Assembly: GCA_023014335.1 (NCBI GenBank)
Contig: JAECYW010000006.1
Location: 3,534,001-3,598,000, forward strand
Direction of reading: 5' to 3'
Source of the DNA: Galerina marginata
Taxonomy: Eukaryota > Basidiomycota > Agaricomycetes > Agaricales > Galerinaceae
Length of the DNA stretch: 64,000 nt
Shown here: piece by piece, positions 41,997 to 63,446 of the stretch
Layout: each line of letters opens with the position of its first letter
How positions within the stretch are numbered: the stretch's first letter is position 1
The notes under the pieces: generated by a model
Told to the model about the DNA's origin: nothing
What the model saw: the letters and a program-made list of their open reading frames with translations, nothing else
Database searches by the model: none
Program-made: the position numbers and the translations under genes

Positions 41997-42014
41997 GAAA
42001 AAGTGTTTTCAGTC

Positions 42015-42062
42015 ATTACCCGCTCATCGCCCGCTCGTCGCCCGCTCATCGCCCAGTCAGTC
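42015..42062. repeat. tandem CGCCCGCTCATCG repeats
   Basis: Three to four copies of a 10-base unit (CCGCTCATCG, CCGCTCGTCG, CCGCTCATCG). The reverse complement (GCGGGCGACGA) appears at the corresponding place in the leader modules at 44275, 49508 and 56937, so this may be an outlying piece of such a module. Confidence 0.5.
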
Positions 42063-43459: not shown

Positions 43460-44660
43460 CCTGGCCAGCATTCGACGTAGTAGATACAATCGAAATACAT
43501 ACGAGGACAGTTCGACGGTAGTCCAACGGCGGAAGCTGGGGTCAGCTACATGCAAGTTCGCCGCATTCAGCTACCTTCCAAAATAGCCAGCAGGAGAGGA
43601 GAATCATGTATTAGATACAATGGTTCTCACTAAGGAGGAGGCTTAGTGGGCATGAAATGAAATTAGTGGGCGACCAGAGCGGGTTAAGGGAATAAACAAA
43701 AAGAATGGACAAGGTCTGGCACGGCAAGCGAGCGACGTATGCCTGAAACGATGGGCAGATCCAGATCCAACAGTAATACGTGCAAATTTCTATGTATCAT
43801 ATACAATAGAAATCCGGTGTATATTTAATTTACAGAATAAGATCGAATTTTATGACCATATGAGAACTAGGAGCAAGAGATTATTATAAGTAACGAAGTG
43901 TTCGAATGAAGACAAAACATACGTCAAAGAATCGCGTAATTCCTATTGGCAGCATTATGTTATTGGCCAGTCTGCCCATGCTACCGCCGTCAATAATGCC
44001 CTTGACGATAGCCAATAAGAGTAAGGTGTCTGAACAGCTAAATTGGTGCAGAGTGCGATGGGTGCAGCCGGGCGGTAATGGTCGAATAGCTGGAACAACG
44101 AGTGGGGCAAGGATTGCTGTGTATTGGGACGCGCCTTCGATGTATCAGATACAAACGAACTCGACAAATAGGTAGGCCAGGCAGAAGTAAACCGAGTATC
44201 AATACATGGGTTCTCCGGCTGGTCATTGGGGGTAATTTCGTTGTATTAGAGACAAACGAAAGACGTTGGCGACGATAGCGGGCGACGATAGCGGGCGACG
44301 AATGAGGTAGGCGGGCGCGGCTCAAAAAAAAGAGCGAATATGTTGAAAAGATACGGAATAAGACAAAAACCATCGACGCCGACGGCGCGATGGAGACAGA
44401 ACTACTCTGGTGGAGGGACATGGCGGTGGTACTCATTGATTGAGGAAAGAATCGAGCCAAGTTCATGCTTGTTTGGCCGCAGTGTTGTCGCCAAACAAAG
44501 TGACGCCAACACCCCCAATTGCAAGTCCCTCGGGCCCTTGAATCCCGTTTAGTGGGCTACAAGCCACGTTCATCTGGACCTCTCCGATGAAGTGGCTTCC
44601 TCTCTGACCGATCCTACCAGACAGCTTTCATCTGGACTGCTCCGATGAATGGCTCCTTTG
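43460..44660 (-). promoter_or_regulatory. hairpin-rich leader module A
   Basis: Upstream of the 42501-43120 gene. Going away from the gene it holds class-2 hairpins (arms 43786-43792/43807-43813; 44136-44139/44156-44159; 44236-44241/44256-44261; a weaker one near 43466-43492) and the tandem GCGGGCGACGATA (44275-44305). Then come the CATCGACGCC/GGCGCGATG hairpin (44371-44392), the TTGTTTGGC/GCCAAACAA hairpin (44469-44498), and two class-1 hairpins (44562-44597 and 44627-44649). The same order occurs in modules B and C. Confidence 0.7.
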
Positions 44661-44858
44661 CTTCCCATTATGATCACCGACCCTCGCACCCCGCACCCAG
44701 TTTGTACCGAGCGAGCAACATATCACAATTTCTCAACTTTCAAATCCAGCACCTGGATTTACGAAATCCGTCGAACGACTTCGAGCGACGCCTTTAGTTC
44801 CAGCCAAAGGTCGATCTAAATCACTACCCGCATATTCTGATACTGTGTTCGTACGCAT

Positions 44859-45315
44859 GGCGGACGCCAAGGAGAATCAACATACCCAAGGGGCCTGCTT
44901 GGAAGGTCAGTTAGTCATCCTGGAATCTCTCGTTCAAATTTCCAATGCAATCCGTAGGACTTCGATTTTTGAGCAAGTCTTCCAGAGCACCTCCGTCACA
45001 CTCGTTTACCCAATCGTCTAGCCTACGTCGAATGGTTTACACCCTTTTCGGCCCCGCATCCCGATTCTGTCCTCTATCCTTTTACTCGCGCTTCATGATC
45101 ACGGAACAACGGACCAGTCAGAGATTATTCCGCTCGACTCAATTGTTTCCAGCTGTTACCTCATCCCCAGGTTAGGTGCTAAGTATCATCCTGCCAAGTG
45201 GGATAGCGACACAGTCCTCGAGGAGTGCAACTCTGCCTTTTTGACCAAGTATCCAACTATTCCGATCTTCTTTGACGAGCATCACTTACATGTCGAGATA
45301 ATTTATAATTAATAG
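44859..45315 (+). pseudogene. C-terminal remnant of a Plavaka/KDZ-type transposase
   Basis: Fragments in two frames give RLPNRLAYVEWFTPFSAPHP (about 45000-45065), then SEIIPLDSIVSSCYLIPRLG, AKYHPAKWDSDTVLEECN and a short tail ending at about 45315. These match, in order, the ends of Agaricomycete transposases (LAYVEWFTPF, then a CHLIPRFG-type block and W-S-D-x-V-L-x-x-C). A stop or frameshift separates them near 45090, and the catalytic region is absent. It is in opposite orientation to the transposase gene at 45556 and from a different lineage. Confidence 0.6.
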
Positions 45316-45555
45316 ACGCCTTATTGTACTAGCCACACTTCAATAGCAACTAGGAGGGAAAAAAATCTATACCATTACATAGTCTACGGAGTTAATAACA
45401 AAGCTGCCAAGTCAGAACAGAGAATTCACTTAATAATCACACAAATAGAATGTCCTCGGTACTAGAAAAGAAATTGTATACAGAGTAATAGTACATTTAG
45501 ATAGAACCACACAGCTGGGTACCAAAGCGAGAATGACACAGAACTACCAGTGTCG

Positions 45556-48500
45556 TTAGTCCTAAGAAGAATGAGTTTATATCCCAAAAGCAAATGAGTG
45601 AAAAACATACACGGGAAAGAGTAAGAACAACAGTTCTTGTATCATCTAAGTTCCACCGAGCATAATGTGATACGACCCACTCAGGACGAATACGGAAGAG
45701 CTCAGGCGATAGGGCTGGGGAATAAACCATTGCCGGAAAGTGAGGATAATGGCGAAATGGGTCGACAGACCCCGGAGCAGCAGGTAGTTGTTGGCGAACG
45801 ACATAGTCAAGTTGACTATTCTGCCGTGCGACAATGTACTTGATGGAAGCAGGAACAAGGGCGCCTGACATCTTACCATCTGGGCGATACATGATAAGAC
45901 TGTTGCCGACATGTGTGCTTGAACGGGAAAAGAAGACGCCATTAGACTGGTGGCGGGCCCGTAGCGCTACTTTAGGATCATGGAAGATGTTTTTCAAGGC
46001 AGGGGGAACGGGCAGGTAAGCAGAGTCGGCAATGTCGTCGTTGTCGGATGTGCGCATAGCATTACCAGCAAATTTGTCGAATAGAGTCTTGCATTCCTTG
46101 ATAAACGGTGGGCAATTTGGACGGGCGAGCCAGTGCTTCAACTTCGCAGCCTTCGAATAATAGGTGAGCATGGTGGCTTCCAATTCACCTACAAAAGGAG
46201 TCAGGTTGATTTTTAATTGCGATAAAATAGACTTACCAAATTTATGGTTATGAGGAAGACGCTGCAGCTGGCCAATCAGACGTTCAAATGGGAAGCACCA
46301 CCAGGAACGTACAGGACCAAACAGGCGTAAGAAGTCAAAGATATGGAGCGCCATATGGCAGTTGACACGGGGTTTAGTGTCAGGATGAAGGACCGTAAGG
46401 TTGTGTAGCCAGAATTTCATGTGTGTCAGGTAGGCGTTCGATCGAGCTTCAGTCATCGTGCGCATACAAGCCAATGTGATGGCAGAGACCAGTGCCATTG
46501 TGTGGTCAAGGGCTTGACGCAACGACAAAGCAACCGATTGCGACGAATGAATACTACCTTCTCCCCATGTGCTAATAAGAGCAACAGGAAGGTAAACAGT
46601 GGCCAAGGTTCGCCATTCATCCGCCTTTAGCGTACCTGCAGCTGGCAAGCCAAAGTTACGTGGGACAGAGGGAAGCCAAGACGGAGTAGCCATATCACGA
46701 ATGACTGCTCGGATATGGTTCATGACTTCTGGAGTCCCGAATTTGACGGGTGCATTGACCATTGTATATGGATGCATCTTCCGCTGAGAGATAACAGGGT
46801 TAGCTTGAATCAAGACCACAACTTATGAGTACATACCCAATCCATCAGGAGCTTTACATAGGAAGCCTTACTCGCACGTATGGTTGTTGGCAGCTTTAGG
46901 CCAAGGCTGCTAGAAACAAATTCGAGTGCTTTGGAGTTTTTCGAAGAGAGACGCCGTTCCAAGGTCTTCAAATTGTCTTCTAAGGTTTTGGTATTCAGCT
47001 CATCTTGACCCTCTATCGGTTCCAATAGGCGTCTGTGGATGTGAGGGATGTGCTTCAGATCGTTCTCTGATACATCTTTCCGATCCTTGAAATCCTTGCC
47101 TGGTTCTGTGAATTTGTGTTCGAAGGCAGGGACAAATTCTGCCTTTTCTGTTACTTCCCTCAGGCAAAGGACATCCCGAAAATGAAACTGGGCCAAGCCC
47201 AACAAAAGACAGTGCATTGAGTCGACGACCAACATACGGGGTGGATCCCAATACGGAAGGCGCCATACTTCCGACCATCGGATACCATTCGCTTGAAATA
47301 GTTTTTCTTGATCTCTGACAGTAGGGGCATCTCTCCAAGCCTCGGCTTGACGACGAAGCTCATCCCGGTCTTTGGGTTTCCAATCAGCGGCTTCAACATC
47401 GGTCCTCCCGAGAGTATCTTGATGATAGCAGCGGCAGCGGCTGCAGTAATGGTTACTGCTGTGATTTGCCGATTGGTTGAATTTGCGTGCAGCTGGAAGG
47501 TCATTGACAGACAAAGCTATCGCACAGCGAGTTAGTCTTCCAGTGGGGTAGTTGGCCGTGCGTGAAAAGTGTACACCGCGTTCCCAAGAAACCAAGAAAT
47601 CATCAATTACCGGACGAAGGTAGTGGTTAAGTTCCGTATTGTGTGGTTCATTTGGGCCAGGGATAACACACGCGACATATATATTCTCGGGCTTGTAGCG
47701 AACACTGAAAGGGAGGCTGAGGCACACCGCCGATATTATCCCACAAGATGCAGAGGCTCCTCTGGGTGTCGAACCTTCAGCGCTGAAAAAATCAACATTG
47801 ATTGCAAAAAGGTAACGGCCTTCAGTACCGGGCCTATCGACGAAGAGGCGGTTCCCATCCGGACCTTTGAAAGTACGAATGAATTCCGCTTGAGATATAT
47901 CGGTAACGTAGGCCGGAACCGGTTCACCCCTATTGATCGACGCCATCAAGTCGTCATTGGTACGATCCGCCATGTTTTCCAGATCTCCCTGCGATATGAG
48001 TCCCCCGAGATAGTCGTGGAAACTATGATAGATAACAGTTTTCAAAGGTTTGGCGCCTTCGTCAGGTTCAGAAAGGGCCGTCTTACAAATATCCGAGTCA
48101 GGAGTGGGGCGATTACTGCATTCACGAGGATATGAGGGGACAGTTGACCCTAGAGCAAAGGTGGGGGGGTATGTGCAGTGACAACTCGGACAAACTGCGT
48201 TGGCAACAGTCATGGGCTCCAAGTTAAATCTTGCCAATGCGGTTTCGAGGGTAAGGGGTATTTGGTCGATAATGTGCTGTTGATTGACGGTAAAACTTCC
48301 TGATGGATCCCGAAAGGCGCAGCGAAGCATTACTGAGAGCAGACCCAGGATAAAATCTCCCATGCGCCGACTGACGCCCATGATGACTGCGCAGACGACT
48401 GAAATGAACATGGCTATCTGGGCGACCTGGTCATGACGATCAATTGGCATATTAAAGTGGTGATCTGTGGAAGCACAAATAAGAAGAATTTCCAACCATG

Positions 48501-49287
48501 TCTGCAGGAAAACCTTACCAGAATTGAACAGAAGTGGTCCGCTTTCATCCACAGGTCTTGCCTTCCGAACTTCGACGAAGCGGTCGTGCAGATCGGCGAC
48601 AAATTTAGTAACAGTGGCTTTCGCCGTGATGACTGAATGGACACTGCGCGTGACGCTCTTAAGAGACACTTGCAGTTGAATCAGTTCGGCTTCCACGTGG
48701 GTCAGAGTCTCGGATGAGGGCGACATCGAAAGTTTGGCAGAACATGTTTCAGCGCGCTCCTGGATGGCTTTGAGGGCCAGGTGTGCTTTCTCGGTCTTGC
48801 GATTTCCCTCGCGTTTTTCTAAACGACTCTTCATCTTGATCAGAGGAGGGGGCTGGTCATCATTCTCGGTGTTCTGGGATATAATGTCGGGGGCAAGATG
48901 CAGGAGATCGCCAGCCTGGGGAGACGGGTCCGATATCTGAAGATTCTGAATGCCGGCAAGAATGTCGTTGAAGGGAGGGGGTTCAGCAGCCGCAGGTACT
49001 ACTGGGCACGATCGTTGATATTCATCTTGTGAAACCCATAGTTTACTGGGTTGTCTCTCGGTACTGAGGCCGCCGTCCGCTAAAGTTTCGGCGAAAAGAG
49101 ACGACGCGGCTTCACGAACGGCCGCGAGGCGAGACTGCTCAGTTTCAAGCTTGACACGATTGAGGTGAGCGATACGCTCCGATGCTTTCAGCGTTTTGCC
49201 TAAAGATCTACCGTCGGGTCCAACAGGGCCGGAACTTGTGCACTCTTGACAAAAGCACTGAAAAAATGCATTGCCTCGAGCAGGCAT
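45556..49287 (-). CDS. Tnp2-like transposase (Plavaka/CACTA clade)
   Basis: A protein of about 1200 residues with a few short introns. The N-terminus has FFQCFCQECTSSGPVG, a putative zinc-binding leader; a middle block has CPSCHCTYPP. The conserved Tnp2 core follows: NVDFFSAEGS, RYKPENIYVACVIPGPNEPH, ARKFNQSANHSSNHYCSRC, AWRDAPTVRDQ and VDSMHCLLLG (about residues 688-697 of the first long frame). After an intron come MHPYTMVNAP, FDFLRLFGPVRSWWCFPFER and the tail FRHYPHFPAMVY, with the last splice giving SRD and stop at 45556-45558. Such proteins catalyse cut-and-paste transposition of CACTA-like elements. The frame has no internal damage that I can see, so it may be recently active. Module B lies directly upstream. 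Confidence 0.82.
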
Positions 49288-49321
49288 ATCGAGTTAAATA
49301 GTCAACCGCAGTACGAATTTT

Positions 49322-50048
49322 GAGTTCTATGTACTGAAACAATAGAACTCGAGCCCAACTTCGACAACGCAGCAGGATTTCTATGTATTCGATACAAAGG
49401 AAATGAAAGTCGTCCAAAGAAATTGCCTCAGCAAAGTAGAACCGTGTATGAATACAACAGTTCCAAGTTGAGCGAATTTCGTTGTATGCGATACAGACGA
49501 AATGAGTGGGCGACGACGGCGGGCGCTGCAGCGGTAGGGAGGCACGGCTGCAAGAAAACGCGAATCATGTAAGTAAATGCAAAACAAGAAGAGATAAGAC
49601 CAAAAACATCGACGCCAACGGCGCGATGGAGACGTACCGTAGGATTGGTATTGATGGATGGTGGATTTGATGGAGGAAGTTGGACTTGGAAATGTTCGCG
49701 TCATTTTGTTTGGTGACATCCCCGTCGCCAAACAAAATCACGCGAACATTTCTAATCCACGATTTCAAGTTCTTCCCTCCCACTGCCAGACCTCCCTTTA
49801 CAAGCCACGTTCATGACCTCCCTTCACAAACCACGTTCATTTAGACCGCTCTGATGAACTGACCTGGCCGACACCACCAAGCGCCCTTCATCTGGACAAG
49901 TCCGATGAACGGTTTCATCGTCGTTACGGCCGTCTAGCCCAGTCAAGAACCGAATCCCTCTGCTCTGGACCGCTCCGAGGAACTGGGGTCGGTCTCTGTC
50001 GCTCGTCGATTTCACGATGTAGCATTCATTTGGACAACTCTAATGAAT
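49322..50048 (-). promoter_or_regulatory. hairpin-rich leader module B (upstream of the transposase)
   Basis: Class-2 hairpins have arms at 49322-49329/49343-49350, 49377-49381/49400-49404, 49439-49442/49460-49463 and 49476-49482/49497-49503. Next is a conserved GC-rich block (GGCGACGACGGCGGGCGCTG, 49507-49526). Read on the minus strand, a probable 5'-UTR intron ends TTTTCTTGCAG just before that block. Then come the CATCGACGCC/GGCGCGATG hairpin (49607-49628) and a near-perfect 30-base-pair inverted repeat (49691-49717/49724-49750). Class-1 hairpins lie at 49835-49859, 49887-49909 and 50024-50048. Confidence 0.75.
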
Positions 50049-50301
50049 CGTCGTCGTAGTCCAGTAAAGGTACTGAACCTCTCCGCCAGACTTATCGTTG
50101 TCCGTGCTGAAATCTATTCCCTCTTCTTAGCCTATTTGTCTTGCATCGTCAGCAATGCCGACAACGGTTATCACATAGATGGATTCGGACCTATGCCTCC
50201 CCATTTTCGTGTTCAATCTGTTACGAGTCAGGTACGTTCGTTCATTCACACTGTATTATCTAAAAATGCTAATTCCTTGGCCGTGGTCGTTCTGTAGAGT
50301 C

Positions 50302-51842
50302 TCAATATGCTTCCCAACTTCCGTCGCCGCTCTTCTTGTTCCAAGTAGTGAACCGGAAGCCTCTGGCGAAAAGATACCCCGGAGCATATACCTTTGGCCC
50401 TGTATTTCCGGCATTCTCGACCACCACGTCTTGCCGTATATGGGACTTCATAAATTCCACCAAATAGGCAGCGGTCGCGAGCACCATTATGACTTTGCCG
50501 ATCAACTCGAGAACACGGAACATGGTCCATTCGACGTCACCGTTATCCTGCTTCGCTAGCCTTCTGTTTGTCGTCCACTTCCAGAGTCGAATCGGACTTG
50601 GTCCGGTGGCCGTCGAAGAGGCCGAGGCAATGCTGACGCTGCCGTCGTCGTTGTCGTGCACCTATCGATTTCAGTCATTATTATTCAAGCTCAAAATGAC
50701 CAGGAGAAAATCCTCACGGCTATGGTTTCCGCACCTCCCTTTTTGGCATGTCTTAAGGTCTTCAAGAGTTTGCCAGTCTTCCGTTCGAAAACGTAAACCT
50801 GCCCATGATCACTTCCGCCCACGACCAAATATGAATTGTCAGCAAAGACGACCCCCTTGGGCTGCGTCTTATCTGCCTCCCGAGTCGCGAATGTCCTGAT
50901 GAATTGTCCGGAGTCCATCTTGTAGATGTCGAAACCGTTCCCGACGTTGTCTACAACACACAACCTGCGTTCTGTGTCGACGGCCGCATTCCCGCTACGC
51001 TTCCTTTAGCCCATTTTTTATTAAGTCCTGGAAGCGACTCACATTTGGGACCCAAGCTGGTGCTTTGAGATGCTCTTGGCGTCTTTCCCACCGTACTTGT
51101 ATCTGAAATATATGAAGAACATCGACACTTTTATTCAGGCGATCGACTCACAATCCTCCGTCATACAGGCCGAACACGTAGAGGTCACGATCGACGTTGT
51201 TGTTGAAGGCCAGGGTCTTGGGTAGGATCTCTTTATCCTCTCCATAAGCCTTGGAATACATCGGAACAAGTTTTCGGCTGCTCGAATCGAATGTCCAGAC
51301 CTGAACGCATTTGTCGCGCGTTCCGGTTGCAATGCGGGTGGGACCATTGACAGAGGTATCGGCTGCGATGCTGACTATCTCACCGCCCCGGGCGATGCGG
51401 CAGGAATGGATGATCTCAAACTGGGCCTGCATTATTTGTTAAATCGTTTTGGTTTTCTACGAAAGCGCATTCAACGTACCTCTGCTGGGCGATGCTGGAG
51501 AAATACCAAGAATCCAAGGACATTTCCATAGCACAATGTATCGTACGTTTCGTTCTTTCGTGTGACCCAGCACACAGACGAAACCTGGCCCCTTTCATAG
51601 AAAGATTGCATTGGGGTGTCGATCTCACGACCGGTCTTGACGTCCCATACTTTCACCCCCTCTATGCCTACATGGTGTCAGCGCGCGAGTTAATGAACTA
51701 TTCACGAACACCTACCGCCACTCGCCAGGAGCTTGCCATCCCGAGAGAGGGCCATGCCAAATACGGGCCCACTATGCCCGCGGAAGGTGGCCACAAGCCT
51801 CGAGTTTCGTGAAAATAGTCCTTTAAGCCAGTTCAAGGACAT
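50302..51842 (-). CDS. WD40-repeat protein with a C-terminal membrane segment
   Basis: About six exons. It starts MSLNWLKGLFSRNSRLVATF; the first WD40 blade is GHSGPVFGMALSRDGKLLAS rejoined across an intron to GVKVWDVKTG. Further blades include ARGGEIVSIAADTS with CVQVWTFDS, LAFNNNVDRDLYVFGLYDGG, GFDIYKMDSGQFIRTF, and GQVYVFERKTGKLLKTLRHA with SPIRLWKW. A hydrophobic stretch VLELIGKVIMVLATAAYLVE near the C-terminus would anchor it in a membrane. All introns preserve phase, so the gene seems intact. The start is 279 bases from the divergent start at 52121. Its place among transposon-linked genes suggests it is cargo or an accessory gene, but no role is known. Confidence 0.8.
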
Positions 51843-52120
51843 TTCGAATACTTTGGCAGGTAGTGGTTAAGTGGGGTGGTGTTCAGTTCTAACGATGCAA
51901 GTTATTTCTTTTATACTTCGAGCGTTGGCTTTGCCCGCTCGGCCTCTTTGTCATAAACAGTTATTGCCGCGGTGGCGTGGTCGCGGAGATTTGTCTCCTT
52001 TGTCTCGTTCTACTTATAATACTGGTTCGCCTCCCATCGCCCACCATCCTCATTCACCCATACCCACCTACAACCTTTGACTTACTCCAACCCTTTAACA
52101 CACCAGTCTTCCCAATCCCA
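51843..52120. promoter_or_regulatory. bidirectional promoter region
   Basis: A 278-base gap between the divergent starts of the WD40 gene (51842, minus) and the Ser-rich gene (52121, plus). The 52121 side is pyrimidine-rich (ACCCATACCCACCTAC, CTTACTCCAACCC). It carries none of the hairpins seen in modules A-D. Confidence 0.5.
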
Positions 52121-52939
52121 ATGTCCCATCGCCCAATTATTTCTACTGGATGTTCTTTTGTCGACGTCCCAGCCATTTTTGAGCCTGGTGCTCCACCCGC
52201 CACCCGACCTATTCCTATTGCACAAGCCGAGGTCGGTCGAACGCAGACGCCAAACAAGTTACTTGCTCAAGAGGAAATCGGACCAGCACCCACCCGCAAT
52301 GGACGCAGCCAGGCACGCTTTACTCCCTATGTCAAGGATTCCCCAGCTCGAGGAGCCCGTTCCTCTCCCACTCGTCGTTCGGCAACTCCGTCTCCAAACA
52401 AGGCTGGAAAATCGCGCGATGCCACACCCTCTGATTCTGGTTCCTCGTCGTCTACGTCTGAGATCACTGAAGATTCAGACGATGAAGGCCTGATCCCTAA
52501 GCCAGAGGGTGAAGCTGGTCGACCCGGCCGTGGTGGTTACAATTTTGAGGAAGCCCTGGGTTGGACGAAGAAGGATTTTCAGAAACTCAAGGTTTGGGTC
52601 CTATTATCTGTCTTGCGTCCATTGATTCACTTTTTGAGTAGAAATTTATGAACGACACCATTGACACCCACCTGGACACCTCTAAGAAGCCTTCCATGCA
52701 GCCACAGCCTTCAATCAACACTGTACGGAAGATGGTATGTGGTTGTCATCCCTCTATACGATAGCTGATAATCAGCAATTCAGGCAATCGAGAAATTTCC
52801 AACCCTTAACAACTATGAGGACGTCTGGCCAGTGATGGACCTCATCCGCATTCGGCTTAAATATTCCCGTGGACAGGCGCGCAAGGCTGATGTTGGGGTT
52901 GCTAAAGTCGAGAAACGTTCGAGAAAGCATGGAAAGTAA
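52121..52939 (+). CDS. small Ser/Pro-rich protein with conserved C-terminal block
   Basis: Three exons: from ATG 52121 (MSHRPIISTGCSFVDVPAIF) through a basic and Ser/Pro-rich disordered region (SPTRRSATPSPNKAGK, then an acidic SEITEDSDDEG) to GYNFEEALGWTKKDFQKLK. A 50-base intron follows, then KFMNDTIDTHLDTSKKPSMQ, a second intron, and PTLNNYEDVWPVMDLIRIRL with a basic end (KRSRKHGK). No domain recognised. The C-terminal block looks folded and could bind DNA or a partner. It is divergently paired with the WD40 gene and convergent with the 53514 gene, with which it shares a 3' repeat. Confidence 0.7.
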
Positions 52940-53103
52940 CTCAATACTCCATGGTTTGCTCACGTGTTTCTCATTATAATCAGATTTTCCCATTGTATTT
53001 TCTCAGACATCCTCGCGTGTTTCTTGTATTTAGAACTGTTAGAACCAGCTCCTCCTTTTGCATTTTATACTTGGATGAGCTACAGGCTCGTGTAAATTAA
53101 GCA

Positions 53104-53380
53104 TTGAAGCCAAATTACAGCACTTTCAGAGCACAATGAGATTGTTGAATTTTTGGGCGGCGTGCCAAATGACATACGTCACGTGTCACGAGCAAATGGG
53201 TATCTAAAAAGGAAATTGCTGGACGTCGTCGCCTCGCAAAAAAAGACACAAATCTCATCACACTCTGAAAGCGCTGTAAAGCCATACTTGAAAATAAGAA
53301 GGAACAATTGACGATTGCGTTGGTGCTGGCAGTGTAAGCATTTGCACGTGACACGGAAATTGATTGCTCTATTCTAAACT
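53104..53380. repeat. shared 3' element (A/B blocks), partly palindromic
   Basis: Block A on the minus strand (53310 to 53212: TTTACAGCGCTTTCAGAGTG onward to CCAGCAATTTCC) is almost identical to plus-strand 61951-62058. Block B (53311-53377) matches the reverse complement of 62059-62120. The order of A and B is swapped between the two loci. A diverged forward copy of A (TTACAGCACTTTCAGAGCAC) starts near 53116, so 53104-53310 is an imperfect inverted repeat. Each copy lies downstream of a gene: 52121 on plus, 53514 on minus, 61063 on plus. Confidence 0.8.
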
Positions 53381-53513
53381 ATTCTAATTTCCAAGGTCAT
53401 CTCAATGGCGGAGGTGGGGTTAGAATTGAATTATATGTCATTAAAGCGAGCCCAAAAACAACACGAGATTATACAATATAAGATACAAATTAAGGCGGCC
53501 AAAGCGACAAGAT

Positions 53514-56500
53514 TTAATGCGACATAGGGGTAATGGTAAACGATGATGCTAGCGAAGATTGTAGATACGCCTCTGCCGCCTTGTTCATCTGGAAGACGAG
53601 CTTTGGTGCCTGCCTATTCTTTCGAATTTCCTGCCGCCATTGATGTGTAGTCAATGGCTTCGCTGTTCCGTCCAGTATGGAACCAACTCGGTTGATGTAC
53701 CAATCCTCGCATTCACGATTCCAATAACCGACATTATACCCAGTGGATGCCCATACATTAGCCCGAGGAAACCAAGAGCACATAGATGTCTGGGCTAATA
53801 AACAGCAGTGATTAGTCAGGTGGGAGGACAGCCAGTAATAGAGATACCTACCGCCCTTTCCAGTTGCTACTCTGTAGGTCCCACATATCAAATCCAGTTC
53901 CTCCTCCGAGAGTTGATCATCAACCATGGTCTCCTGCCCACTCATAAAAAGTATTTGCTCTCCTCTGCGTGCACTCGAGGAGGGACCGGCAAGAATATCG
54001 GAGTCTGGCAGGACATTCCTGGCCAAGCGAGCAATGATACCACCAAAGGAAAGGGCCCGACGACTGTTATGTTGAGCAAGTAAAAACGAGTCCCGAAGTG
54101 TTGCATATGCCGCGGAATCAGCACGGTCAAAGTTGTGCCCAGCTGACCGGTCCCCCAGGAGTGGGCGTTCCAGAGGTTGAGGCGGACGATGAGATGAGCC
54201 TGAGCAACGCTCAAAAGGAAGTAACGTATTAAATGGCATCCCTTGCTCCATCAGATACTCGGCGATGTCAATTGAAGAAGGTCCAAGGTCGCGCCGAATA
54301 CACTCCAAGGCAGTTATAGGCGGAACAGCAACCACCCACCGCGGATTCTCTACAGAGTCTGAGGCACGAGGGTGGAGGAGGCAGAGGACTCCGGTATGGA
54401 ACTCCTTGACTTCAATGGTAAGACACTTCGGCTCTAAATCCTTCAGCTGCTCGCCATTTGCAGGACTCAAGTCCCAGAACATCCCAGGAACATCATGGAA
54501 CGGACGCTTGGAATTGAGCAGAGCCACCAGGAAATCCGTTATAGGTCGGTGGTTGGCAGTCGACGAGGAGAGACCATATCCACCAACAGCATGGCAGACT
54601 GTTGTCCAGTGATTAAAGGGATTTTCGGCTTTATCAAAATATGGTGGGAGTCCATCATATGTAGTTTCATTGAAAGCGAAGCCATATCTATAGTAGACAA
54701 TATCCTCGATAGACTGAAACGGCGGCGGTGGGAGCTTAGTTTGCGTGGAGCGATTTACCGCAATAACGTCCTCCACTGAGGTGCGGAGAGGGTCATAGCT
54801 GTCGTCGTCGTCGTTTGTTGAACACGCAACACGAGCACCATTCGAATTGTACCCCCGTTCAGCCAGCGGCTCAAGTACCACATCAGGCGTTGTACGAGGA
54901 GGTGGAAGAGAAGCGTGTGATGTCACTGGAGGAGGCGCTGGAGGACATTGTGCCACACCTGGCGAGTGTGGTGCATTACTGACAAGAACTCTCGATGAAG
55001 AGCCACTGGAAGGCGAGACTCGCCCAGGAACCTCACGGTGGGGAAGGTACCGGGGATCTTCCACTGAGACCTCAGGTGGTGCATCAACTGACATATCAGG
55101 TGCCATTCTGGGAGGTGAAGAGGAAGCTGGAGGTGGCATCGGGAAAGAGGTGGTCGGGAGGTCTGCAGAGCAACCGAACTCGACAGACGGAGCGGCAATG
55201 TGGTTAAATTGAGAAGACGATAGTGAAACCTTCGGCGAAACGACAGACGATGGGTTGACTGTCACATCAGATGTAGCCTTAACAGGGGGAGATGATCTTT
55301 GATTCAATTGAGGTGCTCTTCGTTTTGTATTTATGGGCAATATTGTGGAAGAAGCATCCGATACACAATCGTCCTCGTCATCGGAATCGGACGGTAGGTC
55401 TGAGCAACAGTCCCACTGGTTTGAAAAAGCGTCGTACCTCCGCTGCGATTTACCCCACTCGAACCAGTATTCCTCAACCAAATCACGATTAAGAAGGGTT
55501 CTAATGCGAAATCCGTCAACGTCCTCCCAGCGATACACTCTGGCACCATTATTACCAGGTTTGTGATGATTCGCATTCGCGAGCTGACGATTCAATCGTA
55601 TCTGCCTCTCCTGCCTCGTTTCCTCTAAAAGGGTTCGTGCATTTTTCTCTTTATGACGCGCCAGAAATGCCCGTATTGTTTCCCCCGGTCGCTGACCGCT
55701 TCCAGGTATAACAGGAGGAAAGCCACCTGGGATTGACGAGGAGGGTTGATTGGGCGCAGATGAGGAAGAATGCTCGGGCGGGGCCGACAAGGGTGTCCAA
55801 AAAGGTGCTGGTTCCAAGTCTGATACCCAGGATTGCCGAGGTATCGAGAAAGGCGGTTTACCCCAGGAGAGCCAAACCGAGACATTGGCCTTGATTACGA
55901 TGGGTACCAGGTTGATCCACGTGCAATCGGAAATCTTGACGATTAATCCTATGCGGGACCGTTGGTCCACACTGAAATTGCCGATACCCGAATCATGAAG
56001 ACCCTGTATCCACTCGGGGTGTACTTCGACGCCAGCAGACTTAAACAACTCTGCTGTGGTTTGTAAAGGGCCCCTGGATGGGGGACAAAACCGGCAGAGG
56101 GCGATAAGGAAGGATAGATATCCCGAAAAGACGATAAAACCGTCAATTGAAGAAGTGACGGCTTCAAGAGCCGCTTGTTCAGAATCATGGGTATCGAAAT
56201 AGCCGTAGGAACTAGGATTTTGAGGGATATCCCAGAAGGGTCGAAAGTCAGGGTGTGTAGAAAAGAAAAGGGACGATAGCTTCGCCGCAGCATCGCGCAT
56301 GCCGTGCTCAAACCGCTTCCACGATTTGCAGGTGTTTCGGGGCAAATGCCAGTTATGAGCATCTTGCTCGATCTTGTATTTGTCAAAGCGACCCATCATA
56401 GGACCAAATAAGGGCGTTTTAAAGATGAACGCGGTATATGGGGTAGTCGGTGTTGCCCAAACGCGACATCGAAGTTCTTCTGGAGACGGCATTGGGCCAA

Positions 56501-56704
56501 GTTCAGTATCAAGGGGAAGCGGATCTGGCAAAGATTCTTGGTTTGGGGAGGTAAAGACATGGCCATCACACATCATCTGGTAGTTTGGTAAACGATCGCG
56601 AAAAAAGTATGACGCCGGTTTTGGGACATTTGATAGGGCTAGGCGGAGAGATCGAGGAGGTTAGAATTGATAAAGTAGTCAGATCAATGTGAGTACTTAC
56701 ACAT
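53514..56704 (-). CDS. large hypothetical protein of the mobile cluster
   Basis: About 1020-1040 residues. The long frame (ATG 56576) can be extended: an intron with GTAAGT to CCTAG ends (about 56647-56700) joins a first exon that contributes only ATG plus one base (56701-56704). The result begins MSLSNVPKPASYFFRDRLPN. It contains GYFDTHDSEQAALEAVTSSI, a hydrophobic block, a Pro/Ser-rich disordered middle (SPPRMAPDMSVDAPPEVS) with an acidic patch (SDLPSDSDDEDD), RVYRWEDVDGFRIRTLLNRD, RYDAFSNQWDCCSDL and C-terminal SMCSWFPRANVWASTGYNVG. An in-frame intron after ATGKG is likely. I do not recognise a domain; similar architecture is seen repeatedly near transposons in Agaricomycetes. Module C lies upstream. 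Confidence 0.7.
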
Positions 56705-57465
56705 AATTGAGTACTGTGAGATGGAGCTACAACCAGTTTATCTACACCAGAAAAGTCCTGGCCAATGGGACGCAAATTGCCTGAGCGAAGGAGAACTGTG
56801 TATGGATACAACGGTTCCAACTTGAGCACGTTTCGTTGTATGCAATACCAACAAAATGGCTAAGCGACGACGACGGATGCTGCAAGCGTTAGCCAACTTG
56901 AGCAAATTTCGTTGTATGGGATACAAACGAACTAAGCGGGCGACGACGGCGGGCACTGCAGCGGTAAGCGGGCACGGCTGAAAGAAAACGCAAAACAACG
57001 TGAGTAAGAGGCAAAACACAAAGAAATTAGACTAAAAACATCGACGCCAATGGCGCGATGGAGGCATACCTAGCAGTGTCAGTGGTGTGATGTTGGACTT
57101 GGTGGTGGTGGATTTGACGGAGGAAGTTGAACTGAGAATAGAAATGATTCGGGTTGATTGTTTGGCCACGAGGGTGTCGCCAAACAAAACGACGTGAACA
57201 TTTGGCCAAGTCCTCGATGCCTTCCCTTCCTACAAGCCAAGTTCATCTGGATCGCTCTGATGAACTGGCTGCATCTTTGACCGAAACCACCAAGCACCGT
57301 TCATCTGGACAGGTCCGATGAACGGATTTCCCTCCTCCAAACCAATGGTCGCTCTGGATTGGGTTTTACGTTGATAAATATCACTTGGATAGCTCTGGTG
57401 ATACTTATTCCGCACCACTGGTGCCATCGACAAACGATTATCACCTGGCCCTCTCCGGTGATGAT
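56705..57465 (-). promoter_or_regulatory. hairpin-rich leader module C (upstream of the 53514 gene)
   Basis: Class-2 hairpins lie at about 56793-56817 (GAAC/GTTC), 56823-56850 (degenerate) and 56908-56931 (TTCGT/ACGAA). They are followed by GCGGGCGACGACGGCGGGCA (56936-56955). The minus strand then has a probable 5'-UTR intron ending TTTCTTTCAG. Further out are the CATCGACGCC/GGCGCGATG hairpin (57039-57060) and TTGTTTGGC/GCCAAACAA (57158-57166/57179-57187). Four class-1 hairpins follow, at 57240-57266, 57297-57325, 57379-57403 and 57440-57462. Confidence 0.75.
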
Positions 57466-57564
57466 TCGAACTGTTAATTCATTCCATAGTCAAGCTTTAC
57501 AACAGGTATGTTTAATTTCTTCACTGTGTATCGCCTAAATACCGATTATTGTACCACCTCCTTC

Positions 57565-60500
57565 CTAAGCAGCTGATCCGCCTCTGCGTCGAAGTTTCCT
57601 GACATGGAACTCATCCTTTCGGATCTGAAGTTTGGCCTTTCCCTCATTCGACAGGGCAGCAAACCAGGTTTTCTCGTAGAGGGACTTAGGGAGCTCTGGG
57701 GCCGGTCCCCTTCGGGAATTCTTCCTTCCGTCCCGTATCCTCCTCCCTGGTTTTGCTCCCTTGTTGGGGAACAACTCCTTGTCCTTGCGCCGCTGTCGGT
57801 CGACGATCTCCAGCTCCGCCTCGATGTTGCGCCGCCACGGCATTGCCATGACGTAGTAAACTTCATTTCCGGCGTCATCCACGTCGCTCTCGTCCGAGCT
57901 CATACCCTCATCTCCAAGCAGCTCGAAATATTTCTCCATATATTCCCAGAGTTCGACATCTGGGTCTCCTCGCTCCTTTTTCCTCGCAATGGTCTTCCCA
58001 ATAATTTCGATGCGACGTGCGTATCTCTGAAAAAATGCGTCAGCTTCACCGAAGAAGAGGTATTGAAGCACATACACTAATCCGCCTCGATGTCGCGCGC
58101 CCAAGCTTTCCCACTTCCTTCTTCCTCGCGACCATTCTCTGTTCGACCTCGTTCACGGTTTCGATCTGCCCATCCTCCTTGACTTTTGGTTGGGCATCCT
58201 TCCAAACTGTCCTTGCACGTTGCACTTGGTCATAGATAAGGTCGCGAAGATAGGCCTCTGAGCGTTGGGGAAGCGATTCCCAGGCCTCAGTTTGCAACTT
58301 GGTGCGCATGAGGTCAACCATGAGGTCAAGCACTTGGACATTCCATTTAGACGAAATCTTTCCTCTCATGTCGATGCGAAGATCCGCTGCATCTGGCCCT
58401 GGACCTTTTCCGTCGTTGTAGAGACAAACAGCATCTTTCTCGGGTGGGTCGTGCAGAGCAAAATCTTCGAGAGCATCGACGCTGAAGCAGTCATCCCTGA
58501 CTTGTCGGGCGAGGTTCTATATTCCTTGTAAGTAATTCGCTGGCTAGATAAATCGAGAAATCACTGACGAGATAATTTTTCCTTTCAAAGGTCTCATCGT
58601 TATCCTTCTCCTCTTCCAGTCGGTCTTTCGCAGACTTTTTGCGAGACGCGCTGGTGGGCTTCTTAGAGTTCTGGGGACCTTTGGTGAATTTGGCCTTCCG
58701 GATCGATTTCCCGGTCAACCTTTTTGCAAGGTCGTTCATAACGTCGCCAATCATCGCCTGGAATTCTTCCTTTGTCATGCGTGACGATTTTTTGTTGCTG
58801 TCATCATCGTCATCGTCGTCGTCGTCATCGTCGTCGTCGTCGCCATTATCTTCCTCATCTCCTTCTCCACCGTCGTTTCTGCCCGTTTGCCTGCGTTTGC
58901 CGTGCCGTTTGCGGCGTCTCTCATATACGTCGTCCATTTCGACATCTTCATCGACGTGGTCATTATCGTCATCCTATTTTCTGTCAGCAACGCACGATAA
59001 GACAATAGAATGATGACACCCACAGAGGCTTCAACCAACACAGTCGATGTTTTGGCCCCCTCCTTGCGTCTAATCTCCTTCCAGTTGGCTCCAGCCAATT
59101 TATTGGCCGATTTGGATGGATTCTGTGCCTTGGATGATGTGGCCGAAGATTGTCCTCGTCCTGCATCTTCTTCAATGACTTCGTCTCCCATATGCGTATC
59201 GCTTTCTACTTCTTGATCGATATGGACAGCAGGCTGGCCTTCGGGACGTGCGTTCTGCGCGGATTGACCTGTTTGAGTTGTACTCTCAGGCCCCTTCCGA
59301 GAAATAATTATTTCAAGTCAAAGCAAATGCTCGAGTCACCTACTCGTTGCCCATGGAGTCGCTCGACTTTTTGTATCAATGTTGCCATTTGTTGCTCGCT
59401 ACTTGCCTGCATCAAGCATCAACTATCATGTTCAAGATTGGTTCAAGCCAGAGTATTCACCCGAAGACGCTCAAATCTGTCCTCCCACTCTTTCTTCAGC
59501 TTCTCAGCATCCGCTTTCCGTTCCTCCTAACCAGGTTGTCAATTTCCATCCGAGTATGGAACTATGATTAAAATTACCTCCATACACACGATTGCTGCCT
59601 TTGCGGCCTGTTCATGTCGTTCAGCAATGGCGACCGCATTCACAGCCTGTGCCTTCTCTCGCTACCGAGGCGTTAGTAAAGGCTAAGCCGAGAACTTTAA
59701 TTTGACTCACTTCAATTTGCTGGATTCTCGCCTCTGCTTCCGCCTCCCTTTTCTGGGCAAGCACCGCCTGTTCTTCCTTTTCCTTAGCTAGCTTAGTTGC
59801 TTCAAGAGCCTCAGCCTCCCTTTTCCGAGCAAGGGCCGCCTCTTTTTCCTTTTCCTTCCGTGCAAGCTCAGCGGCCTCAACCGCTCGTTGTTTATCATGC
59901 TGGCTGGAGATAAATTGAGATTGTCCGATCAAACTCAATGAAACACACCCTTATCTGGTCCAGTTTTAACTCCAAATCCTTTTCCCTCTCACTACTCTCC
60001 TTCAAGCTTGCTGTTCGCGCCTCCCATTGCTTTCCCATTTCTTGAGCACTCCTCAATACTGCTTGAGCATCGTTTGTCATCTCATCAAGCGCCGCTTTCT
60101 TAGCGTCCAATTCCCGTGTCCTCTTGTCTTCCCATTGACGTGCTTGCATTTCTAGCTCTTCCTGGAATTTTTCGATCTTCTTCGACTGCTCCTTTTGGAG
60201 CTCTTCTTGGAATACCCGCATCCGCGTCTCCTGTTGGAGGAGTTGCTCCTTTTGAGTCACTGTCAGCTGGTTGAGGACCCTATTTGCCGAATGCAATTTG
60301 TGGTTTGGTGGACCATCCCTTCTCATGCGCTTTGTGATTTCCTTGGATGGGTCAGATTAGAAGGTTCAGTGGAAGCCTCTCCACTAGCTTACCACTTCAC
60401 TGGAGCTGCCCCGCTTTTGAACCAACGGGTCAGGATCAGGAATAGTGTCATGATCAAGTCGGAATTTAAACGCAGTCCTGCTGGGTACGGTATTTGGCGG

Positions 60501-60719
60501 CGTGTCGTTCGTCGTATCCAGCTGCCCTGGCGCTCCAGAAGAGGAAGATATCATGACAGATTTCTGCGACGAAGCAGCAGGATCAGGAAGTTGTGCAAAG
60601 TTTTGACGAGGGGTAGTGACATCCATGTCTCTGTCGCTTTCGCTGTCGGTCTCGCACTCCAAATACTCCGTTTCGGCACCAGAGGAATGACCAGAGTTGA
60701 CTTCACTGGTGGGCGTCAT
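57565..60719 (-). CDS. coiled-coil protein with poly-aspartate tract
   Basis: About ten exons that keep phase. The N-terminus (MTPTSEVNSGHSSGAETEYL) is Ser/acid-rich. Next is a long coiled coil (NQLTVTQKEQLLQQETRMRV, ELARKEKEKEAALARKREAE, KREAEAEARIQQIE). A run of 14 aspartates follows (about 58798-58842), then KEEFQAMIGDVMNDLAKRLT and a folded-looking block with VLDLMVDLMRTKLQTEAWES and YLRDLIYDQVQRARTVWKDA. The C-terminal part is helical and basic, ending RKLRRRGGSAA. No enzyme motif. The start at 60719 leaves 343 bases to the divergent start at 61063, mirroring the WD40/52121 pair. It probably makes a structural or scaffold protein of the mobile cluster; function unknown. Confidence 0.7.
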
Positions 60720-61062
60720 TATCGTTCTGAGTGGCGTCGATAACCACTGGGTGCGTATGAATATACCCCACGATTCGAGAGGAATGAAAGGACTAGCCAC
60801 TGCTATCGGCACGTTGTCAATCTTAGTCATCATTGCCGTCCAATGGCAAGCCTCGCTGAGCAAAAACCTTTGTCTTTTTACACCTCGAGGTGTAACCGTT
60901 CTGGGACAGGACCCTATTCGTCGCTCGCCATTTATTAGAGGGCGACTTCGTAAATTCTTCCTCCATCCTCCTTTTCTTCGCCCACCATCTTCGCCCGCTT
61001 CTCTCTCCCACTTTCTCCGCCCACTTCTCTCACCTGCCAACCTTTACTCAACCACTTACAAC
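60720..61062. promoter_or_regulatory. bidirectional promoter region
   Basis: Gap between the coiled-coil gene (minus) and the small gene at 61063 (plus). The 61063 side is strongly pyrimidine-rich (CTTCTCTCTCCCACTTTC). The minus-strand frame continues upstream of 60719, so the coiled-coil protein could in principle start further out. Confidence 0.4.
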
Positions 61063-61696
61063 ATGGTCAATACTCGCACCTTCATTGCTCCCTCTCCCAC
61101 TGTAAGTCCGAATCTCTTTCATCATCTTGTGTATGCTTGCTAACTACTGTGCAGACCACCATCGTTGACCTTCGCGCTCGAATCTACCCTTCCGTTGTTC
61201 AAAGCACGCGAGGCGCTGCGCCTCGTCAGGTTAACGTCCCCACTCGGCAGGAAGCCGGTCCCACCGGTTATCTACACCGTTATCCTTTGGTGGAGAGCGT
61301 TATGCGTGACCCCCTCTCCCCCACTGTTCATTCCACCGACGTGCTCATCGTTGAACTCTCGACCCAAACGATGACGAAGTTTACCGTCTTCTATAAGCAA
61401 GACCACCGCCTTCCGACTTCGGCTTGCTTGAACGTTCTCCTCTTTGGCCTCGGCCCGGCCAACGCCACCCAGCTTCGCTCGGATGTCGTCGTTATGCGCA
61501 AAGGTGCAATGGGGCAGTATATCAATTTCGGGCACCGTGACAATTTGCTAGCTGATTGGTTAATTCCCCGGTAATTATACTCATTTATCAAAGGAAACCT
61601 GCATTTATGAGTATGTCTTTCAGATTTGCAAAGCACCCTACCGTCAACGTTCCTGTTGCATCCCTTCCCCCCGTTATCGTCATCCACAAGCAGTAA
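61063..61696 (+). CDS. small hypothetical protein of the mobile cluster
   Basis: Three exons, 176 residues or so. ATG 61063 gives MVNTRTFIAPSPT. A 51-base intron leads to TIVDLRARIYPSVVQSTRGA, then STDVLIVELSTQTMTKFTVF, RLPTSACLNVLLFGLGPANA and LRSDVVVMRKGAMGQYINFG. A last intron before FAKHPTVNVPVASLPPVIVI ends the frame at 61696. The alternation of beta-like segments suggests a compact beta fold. No family recognised. The shared A/B element follows about 250 bases after the stop. Confidence 0.7.
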
Positions 61697-61859
61697 TCAA
61701 CTCAAACGCGTCTGCCATCCCCCTTCGTTCCTGTCCAGCTTCTCAATAGATGAATTTGTCTCGTTATTTTGCGTCATTTTATTTGTATGTTTGTATCACG
61801 TTACCGTTTGCATCACGTTACCTATTACGGCTCACCCTTATTCCTTTATAATCCAAGTA

Positions 61860-62125
61860 ACAAAAAAATTCGCTCCATCTTTCCTTTTTTTCGCGTTTAT
61901 AATCCAGTAACAAAAAAAAATTGTTCCTTCTTATTAGACCTTAATGATAAAAAAATTGTTCCTTCTTATTTTCAAGTATGGCTTTACAGCGCTTTCAGAG
62001 TGTGATGAGATTTGTGTCTTTTTTTGCGAGGCGACGACGTCCAGCAATTTCCTTTTTAGAGCAATCAATTTCTGTGTCACGTGCAAATGCTTACACTGCC
62101 AGCACCAACGCAATCGTCGAGTGTC
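61860..62125. repeat. shared 3' element (A then B blocks) with short tandem units
   Basis: It begins with two ATAATCCA(A)GTAACAAAAAAA units (61850-61922) and two AAAAAAATTGTTCCTTCTTATT units (61915-61972). Block A follows (TTTACAGCGCTTTCAGAGTG onward, to 62058), then block B (62059-62120). Both blocks match 53212-53377 on the opposite strand, but in swapped order. It is placed downstream of the 61063 gene, so it probably includes its 3' UTR. Confidence 0.75.
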
Positions 62126-62149
62126 AAGTTTGATCAATGCCTTCACCGA

Positions 62150-63112
62150 ATCCCACCACCGCTCCAGGTGCTTCTCAATTGCGCCGTCTCCATCGCATCA
62201 TCGATGATTTGTATCTTTATCATTTTGTTTCGTATCTTACTTACATTATACGCGTTTATTTTCTGCTGTGCCCCCAGCGCCCGCTGTCGTTTCGCCCACC
62301 TATTTCGTTTGTATCTGATACAGCGAAATCACTTTTGAATGTCAGGATCTGATACATCGAACTCACCACTCGTCGACCTGGATTTCTTTTGTATTGATAC
62401 GCAGAAATCTTTGCCCCGTTCGTTGTTTCACCTATTCGACGTTACCGCGTGCTTCACATATCCCACTCTGCACCAATTTCACTTTTTGTGCTACCTCGTG
62501 CAAACGAATTCAACCTTGGCGTGGCCGTTTGTCTCAGGGATGAACCCTCCCAGCGTCTGATCAACTATTTAAACACATTATGCTCATCGGACAGGAATTC
62601 CCCGATCCTTCGACGTATGTTTTTTCCTTCATTCGAACACTTTGTTACTCATAATTATTTCTTGCTCCTAGTCCTGACACGATCGTACTGCGAGAAAATC
62701 ACCTTCACCACTGACAGCAACTTCATCGTGGCCCTAGAAAGCTTCTCCAGCTCAACAACTTACACCCCCACCTCATAGCTTTTGCTGTCATCTAAGCATG
62801 ATGATATAACTTCTGAAGTTTCGCTCAACGAAGCTTTGTATCAGATACATGCTTCTTAGAAGGCGGAGTTGTATGTTGGTACCACCTCTGCTCATCAGTC
62901 TCGGTGTCTCCGTCGACATCGCCCGCTGTTTCCTACATCGGGGCTCATCAGCCTCGATCTTATTCAGTAAACTGAATGTGCTCTGGATTTCTTTTGTATA
63001 TAATACATAGAAATTTACACACATTACTATTGGATCTGCCCACCTTTTGTCGCTCGCTAGCCGTGTCAGTTCGGCAGTGTATGAATTTCAGTTATATCTG
63101 ATACACTGAATC
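62150..63112 (+). promoter_or_regulatory. hairpin-rich leader module D (inverted, upstream of the 63447 gene)
   Basis: Opposite orientation to modules A-C. It starts with a degenerate CATCG...CGATG block (62189-62207) and a CGCCCGCTGTCGTTTCGCCC block (62279-62298). Class-2 hairpins follow with arms 62302-62307/62324-62329, 62381-62387/62403-62409, 62830-62834/62851-62855, 62987-62992/63009-63014 and 63087-63092/63105-63110. Class-1 and class-3 hairpins were not found on its outer side, where the A/B element adjoins directly. Confidence 0.65.
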
Positions 63113-63446
63113 TCATTTCCAGGTCGGCCGTCGAGGAATACCTCACCCCTTCTCGCGTTCCAACGTTCGGTTGCACAAAATATCCGCCTGTATGTTGCTG
63201 GCCTCTGTCAGTTAAAGCACGATGTGTGCACAACGTTTGGCATCGTTTGATCTGGTGGTCATTGCCTGGAACATTGTAGTCATTTCGTTTGGCATCGTTT
63301 GATTTGCTGGTCATTGCCTGGCACACTGTGGCTGCATAGTTTGGCATCGTTTATCACAACATCTTGGTTCTTTCCCCAACTTTCTTCCTTCCCCAACCAC
63401 CACCACTGCTACTCCTGCCGTCGTCTAACGCACCTAAATCACCATC

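Follow-up and report, generated by a model that had tools for sequence, protein, structure and literature searches.

Why would a transposon carry many short inverted repeats whose centres are alike and whose arms differ while still pairing? The question is raised by a stretch of 64,000 nucleotides from the basidiomycete Galerina marginata (contig JAECYW010000006.1, positions 3,534,001 to 3,598,000; hereafter the window), in which a mobile region at 42-63 kb encodes a tnp2 transposase and P0002, a large protein without a known family. Judged from its coding content, the host of these hairpins is a fungal tnp2 (EnSpm/CACTA-like) transposon. That the hairpins act at the RNA level, as short stem-loops within the 5′ leaders of messages made by the transposon itself, is, on balance and with little to spare, the probable answer, and it is best supported for the tnp2 gene (four copies) and the P0002 gene (three copies).

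The preliminary description of the locus had spoken of at least a dozen hairpins with a common core. The family is real, with 17 copies between 43466 and 63115, and the arms that had been quoted as examples are present where they were placed. When the core TGTATNNNATACA was searched with at most one mismatch, 15 occurrences were found in the window against 1.19 ± 1.08 in shuffled sequences, and 12 of the 15 fell within 43607-63105. A scan of 66.5 kb that combined a relaxed core with pairing of the arms gave 18 matches, 17 of them with core starts between 43476 and 63093 and one at 2105, against 2, 0, 2 and 1 matches in four Markov sequences of equal length. A chance origin of the hairpins was rejected on these grounds, core counts and scan being far above the shuffled and Markov sequences. 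A strict generic inverted-repeat scan did not separate the region from background (15 observed vs 13, 13 and 14 in Markov sequences); the separation appears once scans allow an extra base or cluster the hairpins by loop. Genome-wide searches covered the 69.3-Mb assembly of 43 contigs, of which C11, C12, C14, C16 and C17 are labels used below. They listed 81 exact matches to TGTATNNGATACA (palindromic ones on both strands), 49 of them in the window and in the element copies on C12, C14 and C16. The reversed-pattern control gave 13, and a longer pattern with three mismatches came near its own control (327 vs 224). Ten viral contigs matched the hairpin pattern once each, which was taken as chance.

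Written on the strand used for the alignment, the hairpin consists of an outer arm, TGTAT, two or three bases, ATACA, one extra base and the complementary arm. The segment GTAT/ATAC, previously described as the loop, is in fact the inner stem, and the loop is formed by the two or three bases that it encloses. Eleven of the 17 window copies have an exact core, and the other six carry one or two mismatches in it. Among the 34 copies aligned from the window and C14, the loop has two bases in eight, and the column after ATACA is always filled, by A in 32 copies and by G in two, an additional base absent from the preliminary description. The outer arms had been described as differing in sequence and yet complementary; complementarity largely holds, but the arms are not all different, since left-arm columns 6-8 read TTC in 25 of these 34 copies. 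In a free scan, the side of the extra base was uniform within each cluster in 33 of the 34 copies, the exception being the C14 copy at 784122. This uniformity means that the motif has a direction, along the + strand at 43-57 kb and along the − strand at 62-63 kb; in the orientation of the tnp2 and P0002 genes, the extra base comes 5′. The P0002 segment is inverted in C14 and the hairpins are inverted along with it; the two move together, and the inversion is not independent evidence on direction.

The individual copies, located by hairpin scan and alignment, are assigned here to the strand on which the extra base lies on the 5′ side. An outer left cluster on the − strand comprises 43466..43499, 43597..43630 (arms GAGAATCA/TGGTTCTC), 43783..43816, 44131..44164 and 44232..44265. 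Four further − strand copies occupy the putative tnp2 leader at 49320..49352 (arms GAGTTCTA/TAGAACTC), 49374..49407, 49435..49467 (two-nucleotide loop) and 49473..49506, and three the putative P0002 leader at 56789..56821 (two-nucleotide loop), 56827..56860 and 56903..56936. The outer right cluster, on the + strand, is made up of 62299..62332, 62379..62411 (two-nucleotide loop), 62826..62859, 62984..63017 and 63082..63115, the last of which is truncated in the C14 copy. The copies are clustered in inverted orientation at both outer sides, which may be subterminal, and also stand before internal genes.

Covariation of the stems was analysed on an alignment of 30 distinct rows and 13 pairs. Pairing is imperfect, with 84.6% of the 390 cells standard against 69.0 ± 1.4 in shuffled alignments, and the pair beside the extra base is unpaired in 12 of the 30 rows (A.A in six). 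Cells changed on both sides numbered 58, compared with 21.8 ± 3.5 after shuffling and 9-21 in slid controls, and the covariation score was 0.359 against 0.101 ± 0.017. Pairs 6-29 and 7-28 were standard in all 30 rows, as T-A in 23 and A-T in seven. RNAalifold kept five outer pairs of this alignment, each with compensation, and did not keep the inner stem. Because old sub-types inherited by many copies inflate such pair counts, orthologous copies were compared as well. The 19 comparisons matched 16 of the 17 window copies with C14 and three of them also with C11; the window copy at 63093, whose C14 partner is incomplete, and the C14 copy at 768480, without a window partner, were left out, one C11 row was padded with N and duplicate loci were counted once. 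Seventeen stem substitutions were found, including two double compensations, T-A to C-G at 44242 (hairpin 44232..44265) and G-C to A-T at 62837 (hairpin 62826..62859), both between the window and C14. Random scatter of the same substitutions would give a mean of 0.096 double compensations (P 0.0034). The other changes, named from window to relative on the alignment strand (antisense to the genes), were two from standard to G.T and one from standard to A.C, four from mismatch to standard (two of them a single window change counted against both C14 and C11), one each from A.C and from G.T to standard, one from G.T to mismatch and three from mismatch to mismatch. Compensatory base-pair changes of the kind that characterise a structured leader RNA element are thus present, with two of the five family-1 measures, given below, at shuffle level.

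The position of the hairpins relative to the genes points in the same direction for seven of the 17, which follow a putative leader intron and precede the start codon of the tnp2 or the P0002 gene. In the tnp2 gene, the putative last leader exon of 260 nt (49288..49547, − strand) contains four hairpins, no ATG and six CAT, and it follows a putative leader intron of 90 nt, GTACGT...TTGCAG, at 49548..49637 (−). The corresponding exon of the P0002 gene, 273 nt at 56705..56977 (−), contains three hairpins, no ATG and seven CAT, and its putative intron of 92 nt, GTATGC...TTTCAG, lies at 56978..57069 (−); both introns were read by eye. The tnp2 start at 49287 agrees with the start of the C17 relative. 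The P0002 gene (53514..56704, −) is read as ATGT at 56704, a putative GT-AG intron and a long open reading frame, 1042 residues in all; among four acceptors tried, another also gives a long frame (1004). The sequence ATGTGTAAG is common to the C11, C17, C12 and C14 relatives. Seven leader stretches with ends picked by eye were then counted, namely those of tnp2 and P0002 in the window, of P0002 in C11, of the P0002-like genes in C17, C12 and C14, and of tnp2 in C17. In that order they contain 0, 0, 0, 0, 0, 0 and 1 ATG and, on the same strand, 6, 7, 5, 5, 8, 5 and 16 CAT (P under a dinucleotide null 0.032, 0.031, 0.065, 0.044, 0.018, 0.038 and 0.001). Together, one ATG and 52 CAT lie between the putative 3′ splice site and the gene ATG, in stretches that include close relatives and amount to about four independent cases, and in which the hairpin letters themselves add CAT. 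Stretches free of ATG are what a scanned 5′ leader would predict, and they support a 5′-leader position for these hairpins.

A second hairpin family emerged when perfect-armed hairpins were clustered by loop, which recovered family 1 and family 2 both in the window and in C14. The same clustering gave one unrelated three-member cluster in each of them, one of the eight members of the window family-2 cluster was unrelated, and nine Markov sequences gave no hairpin cluster. Family 2 has ten window copies composed of an arm, an extra T, GGA-nnnn-TCC and the complementary arm, with arms such as TTCATC/GATGAA, TATCAC/GTGATA and CTC/GAG, among others. All were located by hairpin scan on the + strand, at 44563..44597 and 44621..44655, at 49830..49864, 49881..49915, 49955..49989 (short arm) and 50019..50053, and at 57236..57270, 57294..57328, 57374..57408 (arms TATCACT/GGTGATA) and 57434..57468 (arms ATCACC/GGTGAT). 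Pair counts on these ten rows gave 14 double-changed cells against 5.7 ± 1.8 and 8 pairs against 4.1 ± 1.1. Nine ortholog comparisons, which excluded 49967 for want of a partner and did not pair L052:1092 or the C11 copies, contained one double compensation, T-A to C-G at 50031 between the hairpin at 50019..50053 and its C12 copy (P 0.07). Family 1 occupies the lower-coordinate side of the left intergenic region and of the two internal ones, and family 2 the higher, where it would lie beside putative plus-strand genes. The C11 relatives carry both families. Their family-2 arms are mostly GTTCATC/GATGAAC, and several cores are shortened or without GGA/TCC pairing; with arms near-uniform and cores decayed, the pattern of conserved core and free arms fails for C11 family 2.

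The same layout written in other letters was found in diverged elements. A distant lineage on C17, C12, C14 and C16 encodes a P0002-like protein of 38% identity, and four copies of TCTC-TTT-TGTGT-nnnn-ACACA-CT-GAGA are present in the putative leader exon of the corresponding gene at each of three loci. These hairpins keep a one-base excess on the 5′ side, follow the putative leader intron and precede the ATG. Further upstream, in two of the three loci and also before the C17 transposase gene, lies an array with the inner stem CAGA-nnnn-TCTG, whose extra base is on the opposite side, that is, 5′ for the opposite direction. The C17 transposase, 52% identical to that of the window and about 16 kb from the P0002-like gene, which may belong to another element, has three TCTC-type copies in its leader by pattern, with an outer arm of just CTC/GAG; one of them is a variant with an inner-stem change from T-A to C-G plus a further C.A mismatch. 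A perfect-arm search of the C17 region gave no hairpin clusters, the arrays present there having bulges. A cluster search that allowed bulges missed the outer left cluster of the window and the C17 transposase leader hairpins, the latter because their outer arm is only CTC/GAG. No hairpin arrays were seen at 22 other tnp2 loci, covered to about 1.5 kb on either side of the match.

If the stems act as RNA, G.U should be tolerated over A.C when they are read in the sense of the genes. Counted outward from the loop, 72 distinct hairpins of three families showed 62 G.U and 17 A.C (22/8, 19/4 and 21/5), figures that fall to 20 and 11 when each combination of column and pair type is scored once; three hairpins with cores out of frame were excluded, L055:1593 from family 1 and L053:5034 and L053:6300 from family 2. 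A plainer count over all columns, also in sense, gave 19 G.U vs 10 A.C for family 1 and 8 vs 2 for family 2. The direction of the wobbles modestly favours an RNA role, as support and not as proof; C-to-T change on the transcribed strand could be an added source of the excess.

A number of observations weigh against the leader reading. The wobble counts are not independent, one G.T position being present in all 15 family-2B rows, and on the inner columns alone (arm and core) the family-1 excess is nearly gone (9 vs 7; 5 vs 1 for family 2). One-sided changes between orthologs, expressed in gene sense, comprise two A.C and one G.U in family 1 and two G.U and no A.C in family 2, with no clear wobble preference, and changes that weaken a pair do occur. 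Two of the covariation measures of family 1, the pairs with any double change (7 vs 6.6) and the extra pair types (18 vs 16.3), were not above the shuffles, and one arm type, that with TTC, dominates. The proposal that structure is maintained rather than arm sequence is consequently borne out by the double-changed cells and the ortholog compensations and left wanting by these two measures and the weakening changes. In the distant lineage the outer arms are nearly invariant between copies, without covariation. Stability does not favour an RNA role: the family-1 hairpins are weak on their own (mean −7.4 kcal/mol; shuffles −2.73), the sense strand is the more stable in just 10 of 17 hairpins (6 of 10 in family 2), and two family-1 stretches in a context of 131-150 nt fold, whichever strand is taken, with z between −0.7 and −1.4. 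Two family-2 stretches were folded in context too: one reached z −3.6 in sense and −2.5 in antisense, and the other −1.7 on both strands.

The position of the remaining hairpins is a further difficulty. The stretches of the outer clusters, which hold 10 of the 17 copies, are not free of ATG: outside an intron-like block, their ATG/CAT counts are 5/8 and 12/16 on the left and 3/4 and 8/22 on the right (the last low, not ATG-free), and up to the supposed starts, again outside the block, there are 17 ATGs on the left and 11 on the right. A sense ATG occurs in four of the 10 outer hairpin stretches and in none of the seven leader hairpins, and the flanks of family 2 are not ATG-free either (4/6, 4/5 and 5/7). 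The earlier suggestion that the hairpins lie between a shared upstream block and the start of at least four genes, perhaps in 5′ leaders, consequently stands for tnp2 and P0002, with no upstream ATG, and remains speculative for the outer clusters, where the presence of genes is a guess from reading frames. The intron-like block itself, GTATGT...CTCCTAG, lies at 43851-43917 and, inverted, at 62621-62687, and is 82% conserved between the outer clusters. Terminal inverted repeats were considered as the cause of the likeness between left and right; the two blocks instead resemble a common intron and may be one.

Under the leader reading, the RNA would have an outer stem that drifts yet stays paired, an extra base located 5′ in gene sense, a conserved inner stem UGUAU/AUACA and a variable loop of 2-3 nt. 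A protein, probably encoded by the element, would read the extra base and the inner stem and control the translation or the fate of the messages that bear the array, and family 2 would play the same part at the opposite side of each divergent intergenic region. P0002 is a candidate for the reader solely because it travels with the arrays. The widest version of this proposal is that the transposon possesses an RNA regulon of its own, in which genes carry arrays of 5′-bulged stem-loops of two types, one per side of the divergent intergenic regions, and an element-encoded RNA-binding protein reads the bulge and the inner stem as the outer stems drift; diverged families would keep the layout in other letters, hairpin and reader co-evolving as a self-recognition code. 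As a whole, this wider proposal is quite unlikely.

The main alternative, which we regard as somewhat unlikely, is that the hairpins are double-stranded DNA sites for a transposon protein, a TnpA-like accessory or an anti-silencing factor, with inverted half-sites at the outer sides and at internal promoters. The outer clusters inverted at both sides and the copies beside internal genes would suit such sites, the inner TGTATnnnATACA resembles a dimer site, and the TTC shared by 25 of 34 copies, the 10 of 17 hairpins where no leader is shown and the weak folding of the RNA in context all lean the same way. There are also precedents. In plant CACTA elements (Spm/En, Tgmt*), as in the element described here, multiple copies of a short motif lie towards the sides of a tnp2 transposon; according to the part of the report available, soybean Tgmt* has subterminal repeats able to form 14 stem-loops, TNPA-like proteins bind such repeats, and the stems consist of direct and inverted copies of a single conserved motif, the presumed target of a DNA-binding protein (PMC2613891). 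In contrast, the outer stems of the Galerina hairpins vary with pairing largely kept, an extra base is present on one side and copies stand before internal genes. The targets of VANC proteins are likewise densely arrayed, all in one orientation, within the non-coding portions of VANDAL elements and have diverged between element families, but VANC21 reads a nine-base motif in double-stranded DNA, and that text uses neither palindrom nor inverted repeat as a term (PMC5735166). What fits a DNA site poorly is the architecture: the extra base puts the centres of the inner and outer palindromes half a base pair apart, which is awkward for a two-fold symmetric dimer, as is for any one such dimer the coexistence of 2- and 3-nt loops (2 nt in 8 of 34). 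Compensated double changes are unexpected in a double-stranded site, and seven window copies lie in ATG-free stretches before start codons, though a leader could hold a DNA site too. A DNA site as the sole explanation is at odds with the offset of half a base pair, the ever-present extra base, the compensations and the leaders free of ATG; a DNA role could still apply to the outer clusters, which lack the leader signature and are inverted at the two sides.

Two further explanations dispense with a binding protein. Quasi-palindromes could be corrected arm to arm during replication or repair, the repeats being spread by local duplication; the intergenic blocks are indeed duplicates of one another, and both the double changes and the four family-1 substitutions from mismatch to standard pair (two of them one window change) could be produced in this way. 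Such correction should, however, also erase the extra base, which is present in 34 of 34 copies, and repair its unpaired neighbour, which 12 of the 30 distinct rows show (as A.A in six), and it leaves the conserved inner stem unexplained, so that we hold this account to be improbable. Very improbable is the view that these are ordinary repeats from a common ancestor whose covariation reflects a few old sub-types, ATTTC/GAAAT, GAGAA/TTCTC and GAAGC/GCTTC, inherited by many copies. The two measures at shuffle level (double-change pairs, 7 vs 6.6; pair types, 18 vs 16.3) and the dominance of one arm type are what it would lead one to expect; the double compensations between orthologous copies, pairs 6-29 and 7-28 standard in 30 of 30 rows as 23 T-A and 7 A-T, and a second family that behaves alike are not.

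The transposase open reading frame, P0001 (46810..49287, −), carries the tnp2 transposase domain PF02992 at 29.8 bits against a Pfam cut-off of 28.6, and 30 of the 34 relatives found carry it too; a continuation at 45497..46819 (−) has a weak DUF4218 match of 17.9 bits, under the cut-off of 27. Relatives of the transposon proteins occur in Psilocybe, Agrocybe and Mycena, and four viral-contig stretches that fit a transposase peptide pattern encode no relative. The predicted structure of P0002 has a mean pLDDT of 45, a confidence too low to judge. Five further copies of the element, with transposases 94-98% identical to that of the window, form inverted pairs on C12 and C14 and a single copy on C16, and a C11 lineage is 84% identical across most of P0002. 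Homology between window and C14 spans 42289-63096, with identity highest in the interior (97-99%) and lower in the outer regions (85-88% on the left, 89-91% on the right); on the left, one C12 copy begins 90 bp later. On the right, the C14 copy (C14:784222) stops inside the last hairpin, where a C17-type element starts at a common ACACTGA. The inverted pairs, C12:4372395-4422040 and C14:768590-809625, are at least 99.9% identical between contigs where compared, and these pairs, shared with C16, point to recent large duplications.

Other repeats accompany the element. Inverted repeats of 512 bp, 97% identical and dense in short A/T palindromes of the TATTTAAAATA kind, flank the window element at 41543-42054 and 64256-64767 (window numbering). 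Full copies were found in the genome at these two sites only and beside no other element copy, together with six short partial matches on C12 and C14. A TGATAC minisatellite lies inverted on both sides of the element, at 40158-40276 and 65762-65905 in the same numbering. Each intergenic block contains a further palindrome, TTGTTTGG..CCAAACAA, at 49692-49749 (arms extending to 22 bases with mismatches), 44469-44498 and 57158-57187, and a minus-strand hairpin with a one-base bulge, CATCG-CGCC-nnn-GGCG-T-CGATG, occurs at 49607-49628, 57039-57060 and 44371-44392, the first two near the 5′ end of the putative leader introns. Outside the mobile region, three minus-strand open reading frames (13860-15251, 16323-17717 and 31963-33303) have weak leucine-rich-repeat matches below the Pfam cut-offs.

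Among fungal transposons, the EnSpm/Plavaka elements resemble this one in being of tnp2 type with extra genes, some of them in Agaricomycetes, and differ in that their accessory gene encodes a TET/JBP dioxygenase; that report does not use the terms hairpin, subterminal or untranslated (PMC12730594). Such a dioxygenase was not seen among the 15 window open reading frames scanned with Pfam, and in the open-licence literature no paper was found on CACTA/tnp2 elements in basidiomycetes or on stem-loops in basidiomycete transposons. Close analogues of the proposed leader hairpins are the iron-responsive element and the operator of the MS2 coat protein, which also combine a free lower stem, a 5′ bulge and a conserved upper part at a site in or near a leader, although their bulge base, loop and inner stem are different. 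An Rfam scan of 40000-64000 with 4227 families, the iron-responsive element included, returned no match even at E 1. The usual view is that a DNA transposon recognises itself by way of DNA sites at its ends, and self-recognition and copy-number control at the level of the message have, to our knowledge, rarely been discussed for such elements. If the leader reading is true, a DNA transposon would also govern its own messages, through an array of covarying stem-loops in the leaders of its transposase and partner genes, and since diverged elements repeat the layout in different letters, comparison could be used to look for the reader protein and its code.

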